This document shows, piece by piece, positions 3,678 through 56,855 of a DNA stretch of 64,000 nucleotides. Positions within the stretch are counted from its first letter, which is position 1. Every line of letters starts with the position of its first letter. The notes beneath the pieces are model-generated. The model saw only the letters and a program-made list of their open reading frames with translations. It did not search any database and was not told the DNA's origin. Source of the stretch: Roseiflexus sp. (GTDB taxonomy: Bacteria > Chloroflexota > Chloroflexia > Chloroflexales > Roseiflexaceae); assembly GCA_017743475.1 (NCBI GenBank), contig JAGHYV010000009.1, forward strand, positions 1 to 64,000, written 5' to 3'. Both the position numbers and the translations under genes were made by a program.

Positions 3678-6206
3678 ATGCGCTATGTGTCAACCATTGC
3701 ATCATCGTATTTCTCATTGGGCAATCTCTTCAAAGCTGTTCGACACATGTGCTATAGTTACCCCGGTGCACAAAAGGCCATTGCTCTCCAGTTTCAAATG
3801 AGGAGGTCTAGTTTGGAGTCAGATCGCAAGATCGCGCGCATCGATCTGCGGATATTTCCTCGCACCGAACAAGTGGTATCGATTGTCGCGCTCATCATCT
3901 TCTTCGCGTCCGGCTTTTCAGCGCTGCTCTACCAGGTGATCTGGCAGCGAATGCTCGGTTTCTTTTCCGGTGCCGATGTGTATTCGGTCACGATCATCGT
4001 CGCAGCATACATGGCCGGCATGGGAGTTGGCAGTCTCACCGGGGGGTATCTGGCAGATCGCCTCTCGCGCTGGGGGAACCTGGCATTGTTCGCTAGCGTC
4101 GAGCTGGGCATCGCCCTGTTTGCGCTTGGGAGCAAGGGATTATACTACGACTGGCTCTACCAGCGGCTTGCGTTTCTGGCTTCGTCACCGCCACTGATGG
4201 CAGCCGTGCTGTTCTTCAGTCTATTAATTCCCACCTTCTGCATGGGTGTTTCGCTGCCAGCGCTCGCGCGTGCACTCACCCGTTCGATTGAAATGGCAGC
4301 AGGCACAATAGGTGCGCTCTACGGCGTCAACACGCTCGGTGCAGCAGTCGGTGCTGGTGTAACGACCTGGATTCTTCTGCGGCAGTACAGTTTTGAGACC
4401 ATCCTGCTCATCGGTGCGGGGATCAACGCACTGGTCGCATTCACCGCATTCCCACTGGCGCGGTTCCTGATGCGACCAGGAGGTGTGCAGCCATCCGGAG
4501 TCGCCTCGCGCACGGCGCATGACGGATCAGCGGGTGCCGATCAGACGCCCGGCAGACAGTTGCCCGTACCAGTCTGGATCGCACTCTACGGTCTTTCCGG
4601 GTTCATTGCGCTATCGCTGGAGATTCTTTGGTTTCGCATCCTGGGGGTCATGCTCAAGTCCACAGCGTTCACGTTTGGTACGCTGTTAACCATTTTTCTG
4701 AGCGGTCTGGCGCTTGGCACATTCCTGGGCATCAGACTGGCGCCGCGCGATCGTCATCCAATGCGATCCTTTTTGCTGTTGCAAACCGGCGTAATCGTGT
4801 TTGCACTGGTTACCACGACTGCGTTTGTTGCGCAGGTTGGTCACACGGCGTGGCTGGCGCCGTTCTGGGGGTATTTTGGTAGTTATGAGCCGCTGAACGT
4901 AGGAAGCGCCACTGCTGCGCTGGCGGGTTTGCTGTTCAATCCGGCTGCGTTGGATGCTGAGGCGCAGAGCCTTGCCCAATTCTTCTTCTTGCTCTATGTG
5001 ATGCTCCCAATTGTTCTCATTGGCTTACCGACAATCTGCATGGGGATGAGCTTCCCGCTGCTCCAGAAAATCGTGCAGCGCGATCCGGAAACGCTGGGGA
5101 GACGCGTCGGCTGGTTACAGACCTCAAACATCATCGGCAGCATGCTTGGCACCCTGCTGACCGGTCTGGTTGCACTTTCGTGGCTGGGAACGCCAGGCAG
5201 CCTGCGCGTCATTGGGGTGCTGTCGGGTCTCTTTCTGGCATTGTTTGCATGGGGATGCCTGATGCGGGCATGGGTCCGCCGCGCCGTGTATATCGGCAGT
5301 GTTGCGCTCGCGTCTGGTCTGGCGCTCATCGTGCCGGACGCGCAAACCTTCTGGGCGACATTGCATGGCGCTCTGCCCACAAATGTCATCGTTGCCGAAG
5401 ACAATACCGGGCTGGCGCTGATCAAGAGCAGTAGAAGCGACTTTTCTCGTCGGGCGCTGGTGATGTCCAATGGGTTGGGGCAAAGCTCCATTCCCTATGG
5501 CTGGACGCACAGTGTGCTTGGCTTTCTGCCGGTACTGATCCATCCCAACCCGCAAACCATCGCTATTATTGGGCTTGGCTCAGGCGACACATTGTTTCAT
5601 TCAGGGGGACGTGCAGTAACGAAGGAAATCATCTGCATCGAAATCGTTGGTTCGCAGATGGACATGTTACGAGGAATGGCGCAGCGGCGCGAATATCCTG
5701 CGCTGCTCTCGATCCTGAACGACCCGCGTATTACTTACGTTATCACTGATGGACGTTCGTACATCATGCAAAGCGGACGCAAATATGACATTATCGAAGC
5801 TGATGCGCTGCGTCCAAACAGTGCCTACGCTGGCAATCTCTACTCAGAAGAGTACTTCCGCCTGCTCCTTGACCACCTGAACCCCGGCGGTCTGGCAGTG
5901 ACCTGGGTTCCGACCGAGCGCGTGCGCACGACATTTATCCAGGTCTTTCCGCATTACGTCGATTTCGGCGACATTTTGATCGGCAGCAACGCCCCAATTG
6001 AATTAGACCTTCAGGCGATCTACCACCGACTTGAAGATCCCTTCACCCGTGAGTACTACCAACAGTCTGGAGTGAACATCGTACAGTGGCTCGACGAGTA
6101 CTTCGTCAAGCGTCAGCCAGTGGTTTCCGATCCATCGGCGCCGCGACCGTTCTCGTCCGACACGAACCGTGATCTGTTCCCGAGGGATGAGTTTCTTGTG
6201 CGATAG
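3678..6206 (+). CDS. Fused multi-TM/spermidine synthase-like protein
   Basis: Multiple TM segments (FSALLYQVIWQRMLGFFSGA) followed by a SpeE-like domain (IAIIGLGSGDTLFHSGG...YDIIEADALRPNSAYAGNLYSEEYFRLLLDHLNPGG). Confidence 0.85.
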   Translation: MRYVSTIASSYFSLGNLFKAVRHMCYSYPGAQKAIALQFQMRRSSLESDRKIARIDLRIFPRTEQVVSIVALIIFFASGFSALLYQVIWQRMLGFFSGADVYSVTIIVAAYMAGMGVGSLTGGYLADRLSRWGNLALFASVELGIALFALGSKGLYYDWLYQRLAFLASSPPLMAAVLFFSLLIPTFCMGVSLPALARALTRSIEMAAGTIGALYGVNTLGAAVGAGVTTWILLRQYSFETILLIGAGINALVAFTAFPLARFLMRPGGVQPSGVASRTAHDGSAGADQTPGRQLPVPVWIALYGLSGFIALSLEILWFRILGVMLKSTAFTFGTLLTIFLSGLALGTFLGIRLAPRDRHPMRSFLLLQTGVIVFALVTTTAFVAQVGHTAWLAPFWGYFGSYEPLNVGSATAALAGLLFNPAALDAEAQSLAQFFFLLYVMLPIVLIGLPTICMGMSFPLLQKIVQRDPETLGRRVGWLQTSNIIGSMLGTLLTGLVALSWLGTPGSLRVIGVLSGLFLALFAWGCLMRAWVRRAVYIGSVALASGLALIVPDAQTFWATLHGALPTNVIVAEDNTGLALIKSSRSDFSRRALVMSNGLGQSSIPYGWTHSVLGFLPVLIHPNPQTIAIIGLGSGDTLFHSGGRAVTKEIICIEIVGSQMDMLRGMAQRREYPALLSILNDPRITYVITDGRSYIMQSGRKYDIIEADALRPNSAYAGNLYSEEYFRLLLDHLNPGGLAVTWVPTERVRTTFIQVFPHYVDFGDILIGSNAPIELDLQAIYHRLEDPFTREYYQQSGVNIVQWLDEYFVKRQPVVSDPSAPRPFSSDTNRDLFPRDEFLVR

Positions 6207-22603: not shown

Positions 22604-23415
22604 TTCACTGCAATGCTTTCTGGTTCAGATTGATGACAGGCGCACTGATCGACCAGCACCGAGCCATCAGGCAGTGTCAACACCTGTCCGCCAAACGCCT
22701 CAGTCAGCAGACCGCGACTCAAGACCTGAGCTGGAGATCCATCACCGATCAGACGCCGATTGATTAGCAACACGCGCTCAAAGCGCACTGCTGCAAGGCT
22801 AAGGTCGTGTGTGGAGAGAATAATCGTCACCTTTTGATCACTAAGTGTGTCGAGCACACTGAGGGTCGCTTCCTGGGTCGCCGCATCGACGCCGGTGAAT
22901 GGTTCGTCGAGCAGGAGAATGTGCGGCTCTTGTGCCAGCGCGCGCGCTAGAAAGACGCGCTGCTGCTGACCGCCGGACAATTCTCCGATAGGACGATGCG
23001 CTAGGTGAGCCACACCCATCAACTCCATCCCACGTTCAACAGCCGCGTGGTCGGTGCGCGTCGGGCGTCTCAGCCAGCCGAGCCGTCCAAACCGTCCCAT
23101 CATCACCACATCGGCGACGGTCACCGGGAAGCGCCAGTCAACATCTTCACGCTGCGGCACATACGCAACACAGTCGGTATGTGCACCGGGCGGCAATCCA
23201 TGGATTCGGATCGTGCCACTCTGCGGCTTCACCAGACCGACCAGCGCCTTGAAGAGGGTCGACTTGCCAGCGCCGTTTGGTCCCACCAGCACCACCCGTT
23301 CGCCATATTCCACACGAAACGAAATATCATCGAGCACCCGCCGCCGCCCATAGGCAACGGTCAGGCGCTCGATCTCAAGATGGGCTGGTTCCTGTTCGAT
23401 GTGCAGCGTGTTCAT
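22600..23415 (-). CDS. Metal ABC transporter ATP-binding protein
   Basis: Walker A GPNGAGKSTLFKAL, signature LSGGQQQRVFLARAL, Walker B ILLLDEPF. Confidence 0.95.
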   Translation of the reverse strand: MNTLHIEQEPAHLEIERLTVAYGRRRVLDDISFRVEYGERVVLVGPNGAGKSTLFKALVGLVKPQSGTIRIHGLPPGAHTDCVAYVPQREDVDWRFPVTVADVVMMGRFGRLGWLRRPTRTDHAAVERGMELMGVAHLAHRPIGELSGGQQQRVFLARALAQEPHILLLDEPFTGVDAATQEATLSVLDTLSDQKVTIILSTHDLSLAAVRFERVLLINRRLIGDGSPAQVLSRGLLTEAFGGQVLTLPDGSVLVDQCACHQSEPESIAVK

Positions 23416-24896
23416 CCCTGTTTCAGCGCCTCAACGATCCGCTTAACATTGTACCGCATCATATCGATATAGGTTGGCGCCGGTCCATCGGCTTCCGACA
23501 ACGAATGCGTGTAGAGATCAGAAACGATTGTGATCCCCGTCTCACGCGCCAGTTGTTCGGCAAGTTGCGGGTTGGCGCCGGTTTCCAGAAAGATAACCCT
23601 GGCGCCTGCATTGCGCACTCGCTCGGTTAACCGCGCCAGTTGCTGCGCCGAAGGAGAGACGCCAGAGCTAACGCCAGGCACAATCGTGCCAATAATACGG
23701 AAGCCGTAGCGGTCGGCAAAATACCCAAAACTCTCGTGGTTCGTCACCAGTTTACGGTTAGCTTCAGGAATTGCAGCAACTTCGCTGGCGATAAAGCGAT
23801 CAAGTTCGTTCAATTGCGCGATATAGCGCTCAGCATTTGCGCGGTAGATCTCCGCACCAGCGGGATCGACGCTGATCAATCCGTCGCGGATGTTGGCAAC
23901 ATACGTGATGACGTTCGTCGGATCAAGCCAGAAGTGCGGGTCGACCTCATCATGGTGATGATGCCCGCCAGGCGTACTGATCATCAGTGCTGCCTGCGGC
24001 GCACGAAAACCGGTCAGCGCCAGCAGATACTCGCCCTTCTCCACGTCCATGATCATCGCCTGCGTCAAACCGGAGCAGTTGAGCGTCAGCGTCTCTTCGG
24101 CGTCAAGTGTCGCCCCTGTGTCGATGCTGGTCATAACCAGGGCGCCATCACCTGTTGCAATCGCGATCTCACCGCCTTCAGCGTCCCATTTCAAGAACCC
24201 GGCATATGTGCCATCCGTCTGTCGATTCAGCGTCACCTGCCAGAACATCCCACCATGATCGTGAGCATGCTCGTGATCGTGATCGTGTCCGTGATCGGCT
24301 TCTTTTTTCGCATGAGCGCCAACTTCGACGGCAGATGCTCGATCGGTGCCGGCAGCAATCTCTTCCGCCGCCAGGAAAAGATCGGCTGCCTCAACGCACA
24401 GCGCATCGGTCAGTTCTTCCAGACTCATGACTGCCACTTCACCTTCACGCGCTGTGCGACTACTCAGCCCTTTCGACGCTTCGATAACCAGGCGCTCGCC
24501 GCCAGCATTTTCCAGCAGACGGTTGAGAAACTCTTCAAAACCTGCGCCATTGACGATCAGAACATCGCTGTCAGCGACTTTGCGCACATCTGCGGGTGTT
24601 GGTTCAAAGATATGTGGATCGACGCCAAGCGGAATCAATGCTTCGATCTTCAAACGGTCACCGGCGACATTCTGCGCGATGTCAGCCAGAAATGATTGCG
24701 CCGCTAGAACTTTGAGCGCTGGCGCTGCTGCCAAGGGAGGCCTGGTCGGCGCAACCGTGGGCGCGGCAGACGCAGCTGTGGGCGTGGTAGGCGCAGCTGT
24801 CGGCGACACTCCGCCTGAGGGCGCCGGTTGCGTCCCGCCGCACGCGCTGAGCGCCAGCACGACGATGATCGTCAGAGCGAATAACCGTGTGAGCAT
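23412..24896 (-). CDS. Metal ABC transporter substrate-binding lipoprotein (ZnuA/TroA family) with His-rich segments and an inserted domain
   Basis: Lipobox LALSACGG; DPHIFEPTPADV; HGHDHDHEHAHDHGG; EVDPHFWLDPTNV; upstream AAAGGAG. Confidence 0.92.
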   Translation of the reverse strand: MLTRLFALTIIVVLALSACGGTQPAPSGGVSPTAAPTTPTAASAAPTVAPTRPPLAAAPALKVLAAQSFLADIAQNVAGDRLKIEALIPLGVDPHIFEPTPADVRKVADSDVLIVNGAGFEEFLNRLLENAGGERLVIEASKGLSSRTAREGEVAVMSLEELTDALCVEAADLFLAAEEIAAGTDRASAVEVGAHAKKEADHGHDHDHEHAHDHGGMFWQVTLNRQTDGTYAGFLKWDAEGGEIAIATGDGALVMTSIDTGATLDAEETLTLNCSGLTQAMIMDVEKGEYLLALTGFRAPQAALMISTPGGHHHHDEVDPHFWLDPTNVITYVANIRDGLISVDPAGAEIYRANAERYIAQLNELDRFIASEVAAIPEANRKLVTNHESFGYFADRYGFRIIGTIVPGVSSGVSPSAQQLARLTERVRNAGARVIFLETGANPQLAEQLARETGITIVSDLYTHSLSEADGPAPTYIDMMRYNVKRIVEALKQG

Positions 24897-25189
24897 CTGT
24901 CCCTCTCCTTTTATATACATAGTATCAAAAATAGCATGGGGAACTTATGCGTTCCATTATAGCAGAACGGTGCAGGCATAACAAGAACTCAAAAACATTA
25001 TTGATACTTTGTTTTTTTAACTGATCCGTGCTCGGTGCCATCGTTGGCAAGGAAGTCGTCTGTGTGTCCGGTTCGGCAGCAGAGCGTGGTACGGGGAGGA
25101 TGCCGACCGTAATCACAGGCTTCATCGTTGCGACAGCGCGCACCGGATGCTATAATCACCCGTAGAAAGAACCCGCCGATGACACTGGT

Positions 25190-26581
25190 ATGGCTCAGTC
25201 TCCCACGCCCACTGCGCTGGTCTTGCACAATCGCTACCGCATCGACGAGCGACTCGGCGCGACACGTCTCGCAGTCGTCTATCGGGCATACGATGAGCGG
25301 TTGCAACGTCGCGTGCTGGTCGCAATGCTGCGCAAAGAACTCATCGACCAGGAAATGCTGCGTCGTCGCTTTGTGACAGAAGCGCAATTCGGTGCGCGTC
25401 ATCTGCATCCGTCGCTGCTGCACGTCTACGACAGCGGCGAGGTTGCCGGACGCCCATTTATGGTGACGGAGTATGTATCGGGCAGGACGTTGCGTGAATT
25501 CGGACCGTTGACGGTCGAAGTGGCGTTGCTCTATTTCCGCCAGATTGTTGGCGCTGTTGCTGCGTGCCAGGCGGCTGGCGCACCGCACCCGCCGATCAGT
25601 AGCGCGAATGTGATGCTTGTCAACGAAGGGCATGTTGAGTTGATCGAAAACTGGAGTATGACACCGGCGGAATTTGGTCTCGATGTGGCTGCGTATCGTG
25701 CACCGGAATGTACGTCCGGTCAGCCTCCCAGTTCTGCCAGCGTTGTCTACTCTCTCGGATTGCTGCTGATCGAAATGCTAACGGGGCGCAGGGTTGTTGA
25801 GGGCGCCGATCTTGATGGGATTCTTCAGGCGCAACGGAACCTGGCGCTTCCGACATTGAGTGCCATGCGTTCCCACATCTATCTACCGTCGCTAGCGCGT
25901 CTGCTAGTGCGCGCAACTGCGCCTGACCCGTCGCAGCGTTTTCCCGATGCCCTTGCCTTGAGCCAGGCGCTCGATGAGGTGTGGCGCAGCACCAGCCGCG
26001 ATACTGATCGTCTGGCACTGCCGAGGCATCCTGATCTAACTGGCAGGCAGGCATCAGCGGCAGCACCGCCTCTGAACGTTCGTCCAGCGCCTTTCGCTTC
26101 CGTTCCATCTCCATCTCCTACCGCACCGGTCACGACAATCGATACACACCAGTTGATGCTGCAAAGCGCACGGCAGCGTTCGCTGGCAGCGTTGATCGCC
26201 ATGGTTGCACTCTTCGTGCTGGTTGGTTCAGGAGCATATGTGCTGACAAGCCTGGCGCTCGAGGGGTTGACCAGCATTCGCCTGCCGCGCCTGCAGGTGT
26301 TGTTGCCGGAAGGCATAACGCTCCCCGACTGGCTTACCGGCGTTGCGGACGGCTCCGGTGAGGTGCTGATAGTCACGATTGGCGATGTGGAAGGATTGAA
26401 TCTGCGCGCTGAGCCGGGGCTGAACACGCGCATCATCGGTCTGTTGCCGAACGGAACCCGTGTGCGTAAACTGGAAGGACCGCGGATTGTCGATAACGTT
26501 CCATGGGTGCGGGTGCGCGGTGAGATCAACGGTCAACCGGTTGAGGGGTGGGTTTCGCAGTTGTTCGTGCGCACCGAGTAG
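25190..26581 (+). CDS. Ser/Thr protein kinase-like protein, predicted pseudokinase, with TM segment and C-terminal SH3b-like domain
   Basis: YRIDERLGATRLAVVYRAYDERLQRRVLVAMLR...FVTEAQ...APHPPISSANVMLVNEGHVELIENWSM...YRAPE; TM AALIAMVALFVLVGSGAYVL; SH3b-like GLNLRAEPGLNTRIIGLLPNGTRV. Confidence 0.85.
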   Translation: MAQSPTPTALVLHNRYRIDERLGATRLAVVYRAYDERLQRRVLVAMLRKELIDQEMLRRRFVTEAQFGARHLHPSLLHVYDSGEVAGRPFMVTEYVSGRTLREFGPLTVEVALLYFRQIVGAVAACQAAGAPHPPISSANVMLVNEGHVELIENWSMTPAEFGLDVAAYRAPECTSGQPPSSASVVYSLGLLLIEMLTGRRVVEGADLDGILQAQRNLALPTLSAMRSHIYLPSLARLLVRATAPDPSQRFPDALALSQALDEVWRSTSRDTDRLALPRHPDLTGRQASAAAPPLNVRPAPFASVPSPSPTAPVTTIDTHQLMLQSARQRSLAALIAMVALFVLVGSGAYVLTSLALEGLTSIRLPRLQVLLPEGITLPDWLTGVADGSGEVLIVTIGDVEGLNLRAEPGLNTRIIGLLPNGTRVRKLEGPRIVDNVPWVRVRGEINGQPVEGWVSQLFVRTE

Positions 26582-26644
26582 GGTGCGCAGCGGTGCTGCG
26601 CCCGTTCGTGGTCATTCACATGCACATATGAGATATACAGGCGT

Positions 26645-27388
26645 ATGGAAATCCCTGACATGCTGATCGAACGCCTGCGCAAAGCGCGTTGTGTGGTTGT
26701 CCTAACTGGCGCTGGCGTTTCAGCCGAGAGCGGTGTGCCAACGTTTCGTGATGCGCAAACGGGCTTATGGGCGCGCTACGATCCGAGTGAACTGGCGTCG
26801 CCTGCCGCGTTTCGCGCCAATCCTGCGCTAGTATGGCAGTGGTATGCTTATCGGCGTAGTCTTGTAGCAGCGGCTGAACCCAATCCGGGGCACATTGCGC
26901 TTGCTGAGCTGGAACGTCGGATAGCTGATTTTACACTGATCACCCAGAACGTCGACGGTCTTCATCATCGCGCTGGAAGTCAAAACGTGGTAGAATTGCA
27001 TGGGAATCTGAACCGGTACCGTTGCTTTGTAGATGACGAGCCGGTTGAGTTGACGACAGTTCCGCAGGACGCGCCGCCTCCTTGCCCGCGCTGCGGCGGT
27101 CTGGTGCGTCCTGATGTTGTCTGGTTTGGCGAATTGCTGCCTCCCCGCGCCTGGCATGTCGCCGTGGCGGCGGCAAAGCGCTGTGAATTGTTCCTCTGTG
27201 TAGGCACTTCAGGAGTCGTCCATCCGGCAGCCGATCTGCCTTTGATCGCGCGATCTGCCGGTGCATATACTGTTGAGATCAATATCGCTCCGGGTGCACT
27301 CGATGGATTGCTGGATCTGCACCTGTACGCCCCTTCCGGGCACATGCTTCCTGCACTGGTGGCTGCCGCCTTTGGCAACGCCCCATAA
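26645..27388 (+). CDS. Sir2 family NAD-dependent protein deacylase
   Basis: VVVLTGAGVSAESGVPTFRD, TQNVDGLH, ELHGN, CPRCGG, GTSGVVHPA; YAYR matches the YxxR class III (desuccinylase-type) motif. Confidence 0.95.
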   Translation: MEIPDMLIERLRKARCVVVLTGAGVSAESGVPTFRDAQTGLWARYDPSELASPAAFRANPALVWQWYAYRRSLVAAAEPNPGHIALAELERRIADFTLITQNVDGLHHRAGSQNVVELHGNLNRYRCFVDDEPVELTTVPQDAPPPCPRCGGLVRPDVVWFGELLPPRAWHVAVAAAKRCELFLCVGTSGVVHPAADLPLIARSAGAYTVEINIAPGALDGLLDLHLYAPSGHMLPALVAAAFGNAP

Positions 27389-27434
27389 TTCGCTATACCG
27401 CAACATTGCTGCGCCTCACTGAAGGAGATGCGCC

Positions 27435-28214
27435 ATGACCCTCACATTGCCCGATGATGTTCTTTGTCGATTGATCGATGCCCGGCGCGTCGTGGCACTG
27501 ACTGGCGGCGGCGTAGCAGCGGAGAGCGGTATACCATCGTTTCGCGAAGCGCATACTGGCCACTGGGCGCAATACGACGTTAGCGAACTGGCGACGCCAC
27601 AAGCATTTGTCCGCAATCCGCGCCTTGTCTGGGAATGGTATGCATACCGCCGCATGCTGGCGGAACGTGCCCAACCAAGCGCGACACACTACGCGCTCGT
27701 TGATCTGGAGCAGCATTACCCGGAGTTTACACTGATTACGCAGTCGATCGATGGGTTGCATTGGCGAGCGGGGTCGCGCGATCTGATTGAACTGAACGGC
27801 AGCCTCCGACGTTGTCGCTGCTTTGAGTCGGGTCATATTGCGTTCGCTTGGGACGATGACGGCGAAATCCCGCCGCGTTGCGTACAGTGCGGTAGCCTGC
27901 TCCGCCCTGATGTGGTAATGTTTGGCGAAGGATTGCCACACCACGAGTTACGTCGCGCACGGCGGGCGGTTGAGCAGTGTGATGTTTTTCTTTGCATCGG
28001 AACGGTCGGCGCTATCGAGCCGGTCGCTTCCTTCCCATTTGTGGCGCGGCGCCACGGCGCTTTTGTTCTGACCATCGCACCTGAAGAGTCGATCTACACC
28101 CTGATGGCGGATTATGTAATTGCTGCACGACCCGGCACCGTTGCACCCGAACTCGTGCGCCTGATCGTCGGCGATGTCGGCGGTCTGGAAGAGTTGCAAG
28201 TCGATGCTCTCTAA
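27435..28214 (+). CDS. Sir2 paralogue lacking catalytic His (predicted pseudo-sirtuin)
   Basis: ALTGGGVAAESGIPSFRE, TQSIDGLH, ELNGS (H to N at residue 121), GTVGAIEPVAS; colinear with the upstream Sir2. Confidence 0.9.
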   Translation: MTLTLPDDVLCRLIDARRVVALTGGGVAAESGIPSFREAHTGHWAQYDVSELATPQAFVRNPRLVWEWYAYRRMLAERAQPSATHYALVDLEQHYPEFTLITQSIDGLHWRAGSRDLIELNGSLRRCRCFESGHIAFAWDDDGEIPPRCVQCGSLLRPDVVMFGEGLPHHELRRARRAVEQCDVFLCIGTVGAIEPVASFPFVARRHGAFVLTIAPEESIYTLMADYVIAARPGTVAPELVRLIVGDVGGLEELQVDAL

Positions 28215-28229
28215 TCCTGCTGGCTGGAG

Positions 28230-28853
28230 ATGATCATGAAGCTGCATGGTCCACGAGTGGTCATTCGTCCCTGGGAGAGTCACGATGATGATGTGGCGGA
28301 TACATGGCCCCCCTACAATGATCCCTTCGATCCTTTATGGAACCTGCCTCGTCCGTCGTCATTCGGCAGCGGTGTATGGCATACATTTCTCGAAAATGGC
28401 GCCCGACGCCAGAGTTGGGCAGTTGAGGACGCAAGCGGCGCTCTGATCGGACGCATCTCGCTCCGCGAAATCGACCGGCAACGCAGGCAGGCGCGGCTTG
28501 GCGTGACGTTTGCAGCGCCGTATGTTGGCCGTGGATTGGGCACAGAAGCGCTCACGCTATTCCTCGACTACTACTTTGGCACGCTCAACTATCGCCTGCT
28601 GATGCTCGATGTCGCTGCGCCGAATGTCCGTGCAGTGCGCTGCTATACCCGCCTGGGGTTTCAGTATGTCGAAAGCGACTGGCGCAATGCAGGCTCTCTC
28701 TTCGACCGACGAGTGCTCGATCAGCCAATGTATGCGCCGCTCCGCCGCTATTTCCGCGATGACATGCGCGGTCTGAAAGTCGAGTTCTTCGAAATGCGCC
28801 TCTACCGTGAGGAGTGGATCCGGCGCCGTGCGCCAGTTGAGCTGCATGGGTGA
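28230..28853 (+). CDS. GNAT family N-acetyltransferase
   Basis: VIRPWESHDD...ALIGRISLREIDR...ARLGVTFAAPYVGRGLGTEALTLFLDYYF...VRAVRCYTRLGFQYVE. Confidence 0.9.
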   Translation: MIMKLHGPRVVIRPWESHDDDVADTWPPYNDPFDPLWNLPRPSSFGSGVWHTFLENGARRQSWAVEDASGALIGRISLREIDRQRRQARLGVTFAAPYVGRGLGTEALTLFLDYYFGTLNYRLLMLDVAAPNVRAVRCYTRLGFQYVESDWRNAGSLFDRRVLDQPMYAPLRRYFRDDMRGLKVEFFEMRLYREEWIRRRAPVELHG

Positions 28854-28954
28854 TAGGCAAATAGGACTATCAGGTCTCTTCAACATGCGCGGTTTTTTCG
28901 CTATCATAAGTTTGCATGGGTGCAATCGTATGACAGGTGTAACAGGCGGTTTTC

Positions 28955-29512
28955 ATGTCACTTATCGCTGGCAACCTTGGAGTCGTTCAGCGGACCCTTG
29001 ATGCGCATCACTTCGCATGGGCAGTGTGCGCTGGTGCAGCAGCACATCTCTACGGCAACCGACGCCCGATCCAGGATATCGATATTCTCATTGAGCCAGG
29101 AAAGTTGTCTGAGGTTGTTCGGTTGCTGGATCGGCAGCAGAAGGTTGTACAGTTCGACGGTCAACGCATTCTCTGGCGCAGTATCAAGATTTTCGATGAT
29201 TTGACCATCCGGCGCGGGCGAGATGTCTATCCATTTGTACTCGATGCCGATATGCGCGGTCGGGTGCGCCGCCTGCCGTTGCTTGGCTCACTGGTGCCGG
29301 TGCTGTCGCCAGAGGATGTCCTGGTGCACAAAGCGTTGCTGGCGCGCGGTTCGGAGGAGGGGAAGCACGATATTGCTGATGCCACCGCTATTGCGCGCCG
29401 CCAGATGCTCGATCTGGACTATATCCGGCGGCGGCTGGCGCTCATGCGGGTTGATGGCGCAGCGGCGAACCTGCTTGCGCGAGTAGGCGTCGATCTGAGT
29501 ACTGGCGGGTAA
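28955..29512 (+). CDS. Nucleotidyltransferase-fold protein
   Basis: WAVCAGAAAHLYGNRRPIQDIDILIE: G-x-A and DxD-like pattern. Confidence 0.7.
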   Translation: MSLIAGNLGVVQRTLDAHHFAWAVCAGAAAHLYGNRRPIQDIDILIEPGKLSEVVRLLDRQQKVVQFDGQRILWRSIKIFDDLTIRRGRDVYPFVLDADMRGRVRRLPLLGSLVPVLSPEDVLVHKALLARGSEEGKHDIADATAIARRQMLDLDYIRRRLALMRVDGAAANLLARVGVDLSTGG

Positions 29513-56572: not shown

Positions 56573-56798
56573 TCGGGCGATTCAGAGAATAAGACGTTCA
56601 TCGAAAGGTGCGGCTCGAGACAATCCGGCATCTACACATTTCGGTATTCGTAACGCCTACTGTCTGCGCCTGACGGTGTGCGCTTCAGCAGCGCGAGCGT
56701 AGCGAGCGCCTGCTGGAGGCGCTTGTTAGCCTGCTTCAAAGAAAACCCTGCTCACCTATACTATTCAACAGGTATTCTTGAATAAATAATCCGGTATA

Positions 56799-56816
56799 GC
56801 CCGCGCAGGCGGGCTT
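56799..56816 (-). repeat. Palindromic repeat core, inverted copy of the element at window start
   Basis: agcccgcgcaggcgggct is the exact reverse complement of agcccgcctgcgcgggct. Confidence 0.7.
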
Positions 56817-56855
56817 CGCACCACAATGACGACCACTTCGTTCCGACGCACTTCT

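Follow-up and report, generated by a model that had tools for sequence, protein, structure and literature searches.

We describe here a five-gene locus at positions 25190-29512 of a 64,000-nt stretch of Roseiflexus sp. DNA (assembly GCA_017743475.1, contig JAGHYV010000009.1, positions 1-64,000, forward strand; hereafter the window). Its core gene order, pseudokinase - Sir2B - GNAT - nucleotidyltransferase (NTase), is conserved across the Chloroflexales, where Sir2B denotes a sirtuin-fold protein that has lost its catalytic residues in the Roseiflexaceae. Tentatively, we favor reading the locus as a membrane signaling hub centered on the pseudokinase, in which Sir2B would act as a binding subunit controlling the GNAT and perhaps the NTase, which has a MenT1-like fold. 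The observations that carry this reading are the order-wide linkage of the genes, the loss of the kinase motifs, the graded loss of sirtuin residues, purifying selection, and the intact GNAT and NTase residues; together they suggest an uncharacterized signaling system run by inactive enzyme folds. The five genes are:

25190..26581, + strand: pseudokinase-transmembrane (TM)-SH3b protein, 463 aa; PF00069 (Pkinase, 62.7 bits) and PF08239 (SH3_3)
26645..27388, + strand: Sir2A, canonical class-III-like sirtuin, 247 aa; SIR2 182.6 bits; GAGVS, YAYRR, TQNVD and ELHGN present
27435..28214, + strand: Sir2B, pseudo-sirtuin, 259 aa; SIR2 153.2 bits
28230..28853, + strand: GNAT, RimL/SpeG-like, 207 aa; PF13302 (Acetyltransf_3) 65.7 bits; GLGTEA acetyl-CoA loop intact
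28955..29512, + strand: NTase, MenT1-like fold, 185 aa; PF14907 (NTP_transf_5) 33.5 bits, just above cut-off

An initial annotation of this DNA had described five co-directional genes with short gaps, among them a canonical Sir2 deacylase, a GNAT acetyltransferase and a nucleotidyltransferase. All five open reading frames, the intergenic gaps (63, 46, 15 and 101 bp) and these domain calls were recovered, the deacylase activity being predicted from its full motif set. The wider interpretation fared unevenly: the proposal of an uncharacterized, conserved module containing two non-catalytic proteins agrees with the neighborhood and the motif losses described below, while the writer/eraser switch that was built on it is not supported, and NAD sensing is unlikely.

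Conservation of the neighborhood

The survey covered 82 Chloroflexales genomes from four families, namely the Roseiflexaceae (f1, which holds Roseiflexus), f2, f3 (presumably the Herpetosiphonaceae) and f4 (presumably the Chloroflexaceae). The pseudokinase was detected in 75 of them, with Sir2B directly downstream in 41 (f1 19, f2 6, f3 7, f4 9), and Sir2B is followed by the GNAT in every Roseiflexaceae (25/25) and f4 (10/10) genome that possesses it. With or without sirtuins in between, the pseudokinase precedes the GNAT in 54 genomes, and the GNAT precedes the NTase in 42. Among the latter are 9/9 f3 genomes, in which these two genes are found apart from the pseudokinase. Some cases scored as "other contig" are contig ends falling inside the locus. 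Most f4 genomes keep the pseudokinase-GNAT pair, often with the NTase, and have no sirtuin in the locus. The initial annotation had named a lack of conservation in related genomes as grounds for refutation, and this check came out in favor of the module; with a gene order that recurs in dozens of genomes and a promoter kept in 5/5 loci (see below), the arrangement lies far beyond chance. The recurring partners are the pseudokinase, Sir2B (alive, dead or lost), the GNAT and the NTase, whereas a canonical eraser is inconstant, and for this reason we place the pseudokinase at the center of the proposed hub.

Our literature searches, which covered mainly open-access papers, returned no prior report of the operon, and a search of the open literature found no description of a pseudo-sirtuin. 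Each fold is known; in the literature searched no mention turned up of their combination, of this pseudokinase family or of the conserved dead sirtuin. The proposed system would fall under pseudoenzyme-based regulation.

An order-specific pseudokinase family

The following features of the pseudokinase gene are relevant:

25235..25942, + strand: pseudokinase domain (residues 16-251)
25586-25594, + strand: HPP replacing HRD, within the pseudokinase domain
25646-25654, + strand: ENW replacing DFG, within the pseudokinase domain
26186..26260, + strand: single TM helix (~residues 333-357), called from sequence; helix 320-361 in the AlphaFold2 (AF2) model; topology predicted
26393..26563, + strand: SH3b domain (PF08239), predicted extracytoplasmic; beta-rich C-terminus in the AF2 model

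The window protein had been proposed to be a degenerate kinase-like protein, and its motifs (VLVA for VAVK, HPPISS for HRDIKP, ENW for DFG) as well as the losses in 48/48 distinct homologs leave little doubt of this. The beta3 Lys is replaced by His, Asn, Ala or Tyr and is present in 0/48; the HRD motif reads xPP, its Asp again being found in 0/48 (Pro 47, Met 1); and DFG is mostly ExW, with Glu (41), Asp (6) or Ala (1) at the Asp position and Trp for Gly in 45/48. The homologs therefore show the losses by which bacterial pseudokinases are recognized (beta3 Lys, HRD Asp, DFG Asp), though the DFG acid usually survives, and because it is kept as Glu or Asp, the domain may still bind Mg2+ or nucleotide. 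The activation segment, counted from the DFG position up to the Glu of APE, has a fixed length of 21 residues (48/48), shorter than the aligned segment of Mycobacterium tuberculosis PknB. PknB is also the closest structural match of the AF2 kinase fold (target-normalized template-modeling score, TMt, ~0.8); the model combines this PknB-like domain (predicted local distance difference test, pLDDT, ~90) with one long TM helix and a beta-rich SH3b domain, joined by low-confidence linkers. Arginines flank the TM helix on its N-terminal side, which we take to be the cytoplasmic side.

Full-length family members score >=419 bits within the order and matches outside it <=220 bits. The best outside match (G236, 220 bits) is an ordinary HRD/DFG kinase, which rules it out as a relative, and on sequence comparison the pseudokinase is a uniform, order-restricted family. 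In one genome (G010; locus L063, 1284-2887, - strand) the gene is split into two overlapping frames, reflecting either a frameshift or an assembly error.

A 2025 review of bacterial pseudokinases lists the families ActPs1-3, GLW, CP1, DYD and DLHK and never mentions the Chloroflexi (PMC12599244); judged by its signatures, the present family matches none of them. The nearest comparison is with the MviN (Rv3910)/ActPs3 pseudokinases and the PknB-type receptor kinases. Features in common are a cytoplasmic PknB-like fold whose catalytic motifs are degraded, a shortened activation segment, a bulky Trp near the active site and a C-terminal TM region; the MviN pseudokinase acts as a regulatory scaffold (PMC12599244). 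In contrast, the present proteins carry the signature HPPISS...ExW instead of the LSIDHPSR / Y-- of MviN/ActPs3, consist only of Pkinase and SH3_3 domains with the SH3b placed outside and no MurJ domain or MviN-type fusion, are confined to the Chloroflexales, and are encoded in an operon with a sirtuin and a GNAT.

A conserved sirtuin without catalytic residues

Two substitutions mark the window copy of Sir2B:

27744-27746, + strand: Ser104 in place of the TQN Asn
27795-27797, + strand: Asn121 in place of the catalytic His

The call of a catalytically degenerate Sir2 paralog is well founded: the window protein reads ELNGS for ELHGN, TQS for TQN and GGGVA for GAGVS, while Asp106 and the acyl-pocket residues Tyr69/Arg72 are kept. 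In 25/25 Roseiflexaceae copies Asn stands in place of the catalytic His, and Ala, Ser or Thr in place of the TQN Asn, so that none has the residues (HG His, TQN Asn) of an active deacylase; all 25 nevertheless keep the Asp of TQNxD as well as the acyl-pocket Tyr and Arg. None of the scored rows has the GTS Ser, and most lack the adenine-ribose Asn.

Both the catalytic His and the Asn are present in all f2 and f4 orthologs checked, whereas the TQN Asn is lost in f3 (7/7) and the Roseiflexaceae, and the HG His in the Roseiflexaceae only. Sir2B forms one clade (support 98) that includes the catalytically canonical f2 and f4 copies, each family group occupying one side of a branch, and on this distribution the residues appear to have been lost stepwise, first the Asn and then the His. 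Ratios of nonsynonymous to synonymous substitution (dN/dS) within Roseiflexus and the related genus g5 are lowest for Sir2B (0.056), below the canonical Sir2A (0.086), the NTase (0.078), the GNAT (0.115) and the pseudokinase (0.17). A decaying pseudogene is ruled out by this value and by the intact frames in all genus members; we read the low ratio as the signature of a conserved non-catalytic function.

A proposed pseudokinase-centered signaling hub

According to the reading that we favor, the first gene would encode a single-pass receptor with the SH3b domain outside and the pseudokinase inside, from which no phosphotransfer is expected. The pseudokinase would bind the sirtuin-fold subunit Sir2B, which in the Roseiflexaceae would have given up catalysis to serve in binding or allostery, its conserved Tyr/Arg pocket perhaps remaining a docking site for acyl-lysine. 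An envelope signal would lead this complex to control the neighboring GNAT, which looks active, and also the MenT1-fold NTase, either via the GNAT or in parallel. Where it is present, canonical Sir2A would be a lineage-specific addition that may reverse the system or be modulated by it. The physical contact, the direction of control, the envelope sensing and the substrates of the transferases are inferred. A bolder version, which we consider rather improbable, is that the dead kinase and the dead sirtuin jointly make up an acyl-lysine reader at the membrane, which would sense the state of the envelope or of acylation and switch the GNAT and a tRNA-type NTase; if true, a sirtuin fold would have turned from enzyme into reader stepwise inside one bacterial order, a conversion that could be studied on living orthologs.

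Several observations weigh against the favored reading. Sir2B or the pseudokinase is absent from 31/41 f4 genomes, and the core can thus do without Sir2B, which most f4 loci lack. The pseudokinase does not adjoin Sir2B-GNAT in the Roseiflexaceae genera g2 and g7, nor are the GNAT and NTase beside it in f3; in f2 no NTase was detected, and the GNAT either is absent or is an unlinked gene with a weak match. The SH3b ligand and the membrane topology are themselves presumed from prediction, and co-expression alone, with no contact between the products, can keep a gene order deeply conserved.

Catalogs of bacterial pseudokinases rely mostly on sequence, and partners are known for few of these proteins. 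For the present family, which is specific to one order, the fixed gene neighborhood points to candidate partners. Moreover, Sir2B provides a natural series, from active-looking copies in f2 and f4 through half-degenerate ones in f3 to the fully degenerate and strongly conserved Roseiflexaceae proteins, so that the conversion of an enzyme fold into a regulator can be put to a direct test.

Alternative explanations

The strongest competing view is that the GNAT and NTase are a working pair acting on a shared small molecule or tRNA, restrained by the two dead enzymes as inhibitors or antitoxin-like partners; we regard this as unlikely. Both transferases look active, their catalytic motifs being intact: the GNAT keeps the acetyl-CoA loop together with a conserved C-terminal extension, and D41, D43, K126, D139 and D142 of the NTase are invariant. 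The GNAT resembles the SpeG/RimL/AAC(6') families, its nearest solved relatives being spermidine/RimL-like acetyltransferases, and its acceptor could be a protein, a polyamine or another molecule. The NTase model (pLDDT 92) is closest to the MenT1 tRNA nucleotidyltransferase (8an4/8an5, probability 1.00), followed by LnuA and ANT(2'')-Ia, and the two genes stay together even where they are detached from the pseudokinase. There is also precedent in the GNAT toxin TacT, with an acetylation of TacA that CobB reverses (PMC5449658). Against this view stands the vertical, order-wide, chromosomal inheritance, as opposed to the patchy spread of toxin-antitoxin systems. The NTase shares with MenT1/AbiEii-type enzymes the predicted fold and the set of DxD, Lys and Asp residues, but has no recognized MenA partner or other antitoxin family beside it, its constant neighbor being the GNAT, and many genomes have lost the NTase yet keep the GNAT. 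Furthermore, the MenT1 phosphoacceptor Thr39 corresponds by motif alignment to Ile/Leu here, a position that is not Thr/Ser (PMC11375011). Outside the order the NTase occurs in two of the sampled phylum genomes, with no other operon gene near either. An anti-phage defense system was ruled out, as PADLOC gave no match for Sir2A, Sir2B, GNAT or NTase and only generic ones (e.g., PD-T4-6) for the kinase.

The acylation switch of the initial annotation, in which the GNAT would write, Sir2A erase and Sir2B regulate Sir2A, appears improbable. It draws on the adjacency of all genes in Roseiflexus and g5, on the YxxR deacylase-specificity motif shared by Sir2A and Sir2B, and on f3, where a canonical Sir2 likewise adjoins (behind) a degenerate Sir2B. 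In its general type it resembles the AcuA/SrtN and Pat/CobB lysine acylation systems, which also pair a GNAT with a Sir2-type deacylase, but many members of the present group have a dead sirtuin or none, and a conserved sirtuin eraser is lacking. Only Roseiflexus (g1), g5 and, behind Sir2B, f3 have a canonical Sir2A in the locus. GAGxS, TQNxD, HG and the Zn cysteines of an active deacylase are present in 7/7 Sir2A copies, except that the first Cys pair is usually CxxD rather than CxxC. Dead Sir2B is the sole PF02146 protein in 15 of the 25 Roseiflexaceae genomes that have any Sir2 (9/15 of them >=90% complete), and all 15 encode homologs of Zn-dependent deacetylases (PF00850), which could erase instead; most f4 loci have the GNAT without a sirtuin. 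Neither would Sir2B readily supply the proposed NAD input: the NAD-contact residues are lost, the TQN Asn in 25/25 and the GTS Ser in all scored rows, making NAD sensing unlikely. Sir2A and Sir2B fall into separate, well-supported clades, which rules out a recent duplication, and the tree suggests that canonical Sir2 was recruited twice beside degenerate Sir2B, with a single origin of the two Sir2A groups neither shown nor rejected (approximately unbiased test, AU p = 0.07). As to the first zinc Cys pair: Within the genus this pair mostly reads CxxD in Sir2A, with CxxC in L058; three Cys and an Asp may ligate the Zn.

About as improbable is that the neighborhood is conserved without a common pathway, the genes sharing a promoter and staying together for lack of rearrangement. 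The blocks do separate without gene loss in two Roseiflexaceae genera and in f3. Yet the neighbors are kept across families, whereas the flanking genes are not beyond Roseiflexus and g5, the remaining genes stay adjacent despite repeated losses and insertions where the Sir2 genes sit, and stop and start codons overlap in several relatives.

That Sir2B retains another NAD-dependent chemistry, such as ADP-ribosyl transfer as in the class M sirtuins (SirTM), is very unlikely. In its favor, the fold and the TQNxD Asp are kept in 25/25, and SirTM, also operon-encoded and lacking the catalytic His, is active with Gln in its place; against it, the essential Asn118 of SirTM (N118A is inactive) is lost in 25/25 Roseiflexaceae and 7/7 f3 copies, making deacylation and ADP-ribosylation both unlikely, and the NAD-ribose contacts are mostly gone (PMC4518038). 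Sir2B further differs from SirTM in having NG instead of QG and in adjoining no macrodomain, GcvH-L or LplA2 gene, no macrodomain being encoded among the operon genes (PMC4518038).

Transcription and surroundings of the locus

Two sequence elements were located in the non-coding DNA of the locus:

25128..25156, + strand: candidate promoter from a pattern scan; -35 TTGCGA, 17-nt spacer, extended -10 TGCTATAAT (TATAAT)
28851..28872, no strand: inverted repeat TGATAG-N10-CTATCA straddling the GNAT stop; the genome's only copy

The promoter-like site ends 33 nt 5' of the pseudokinase start codon. Its TTGCG and GCTATAATC blocks are invariant in 5/5 loci of Roseiflexus and g5, while the other upstream DNA diverges. 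Together with the gene spacing and the 4-nt overlaps of kinase/Sir2B or Sir2B/GNAT in several relatives, this points to co-transcription from a single conserved promoter. The block 28846-28907 after the GNAT stop is conserved in the genus and includes a weak TATCAT -10-like site at 28880-28907, between the GNAT and NTase genes; it may serve the NTase gene as an additional promoter or as an operator. Conservation does not extend to the perfect palindrome, which, as the sole copy in the genome, was ruled out as a regulon operator. Scans for Rfam families and tRNAs were negative across the locus.

The operon is flanked by a divergent metal ABC transporter operon on one side and a convergent rpoC on the other, genes that were not seen next to it in any group other than Roseiflexus and g5. 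The Sir2B sequence of the window shares 95% identity with its counterpart in the single-contig genome G002 and is close to those of named Roseiflexus metagenome-assembled genomes. Matches to the Rfam family CRISPR-DR28 lie at 1-290 and 56797-56820 of the window, those at the 5' end being three irregularly spaced copies of a GC-rich palindromic repeat and no CRISPR array. A Zn/Mn ABC substrate-binding protein (23412-24920, - strand, 502 aa) carries a His/Asp-rich insertion that splits its family match, the second stretch starting from ~residue 315, and an 842-aa protein (3678-6206, + strand) combines a weak match to the major facilitator superfamily with a spermidine-synthase domain.

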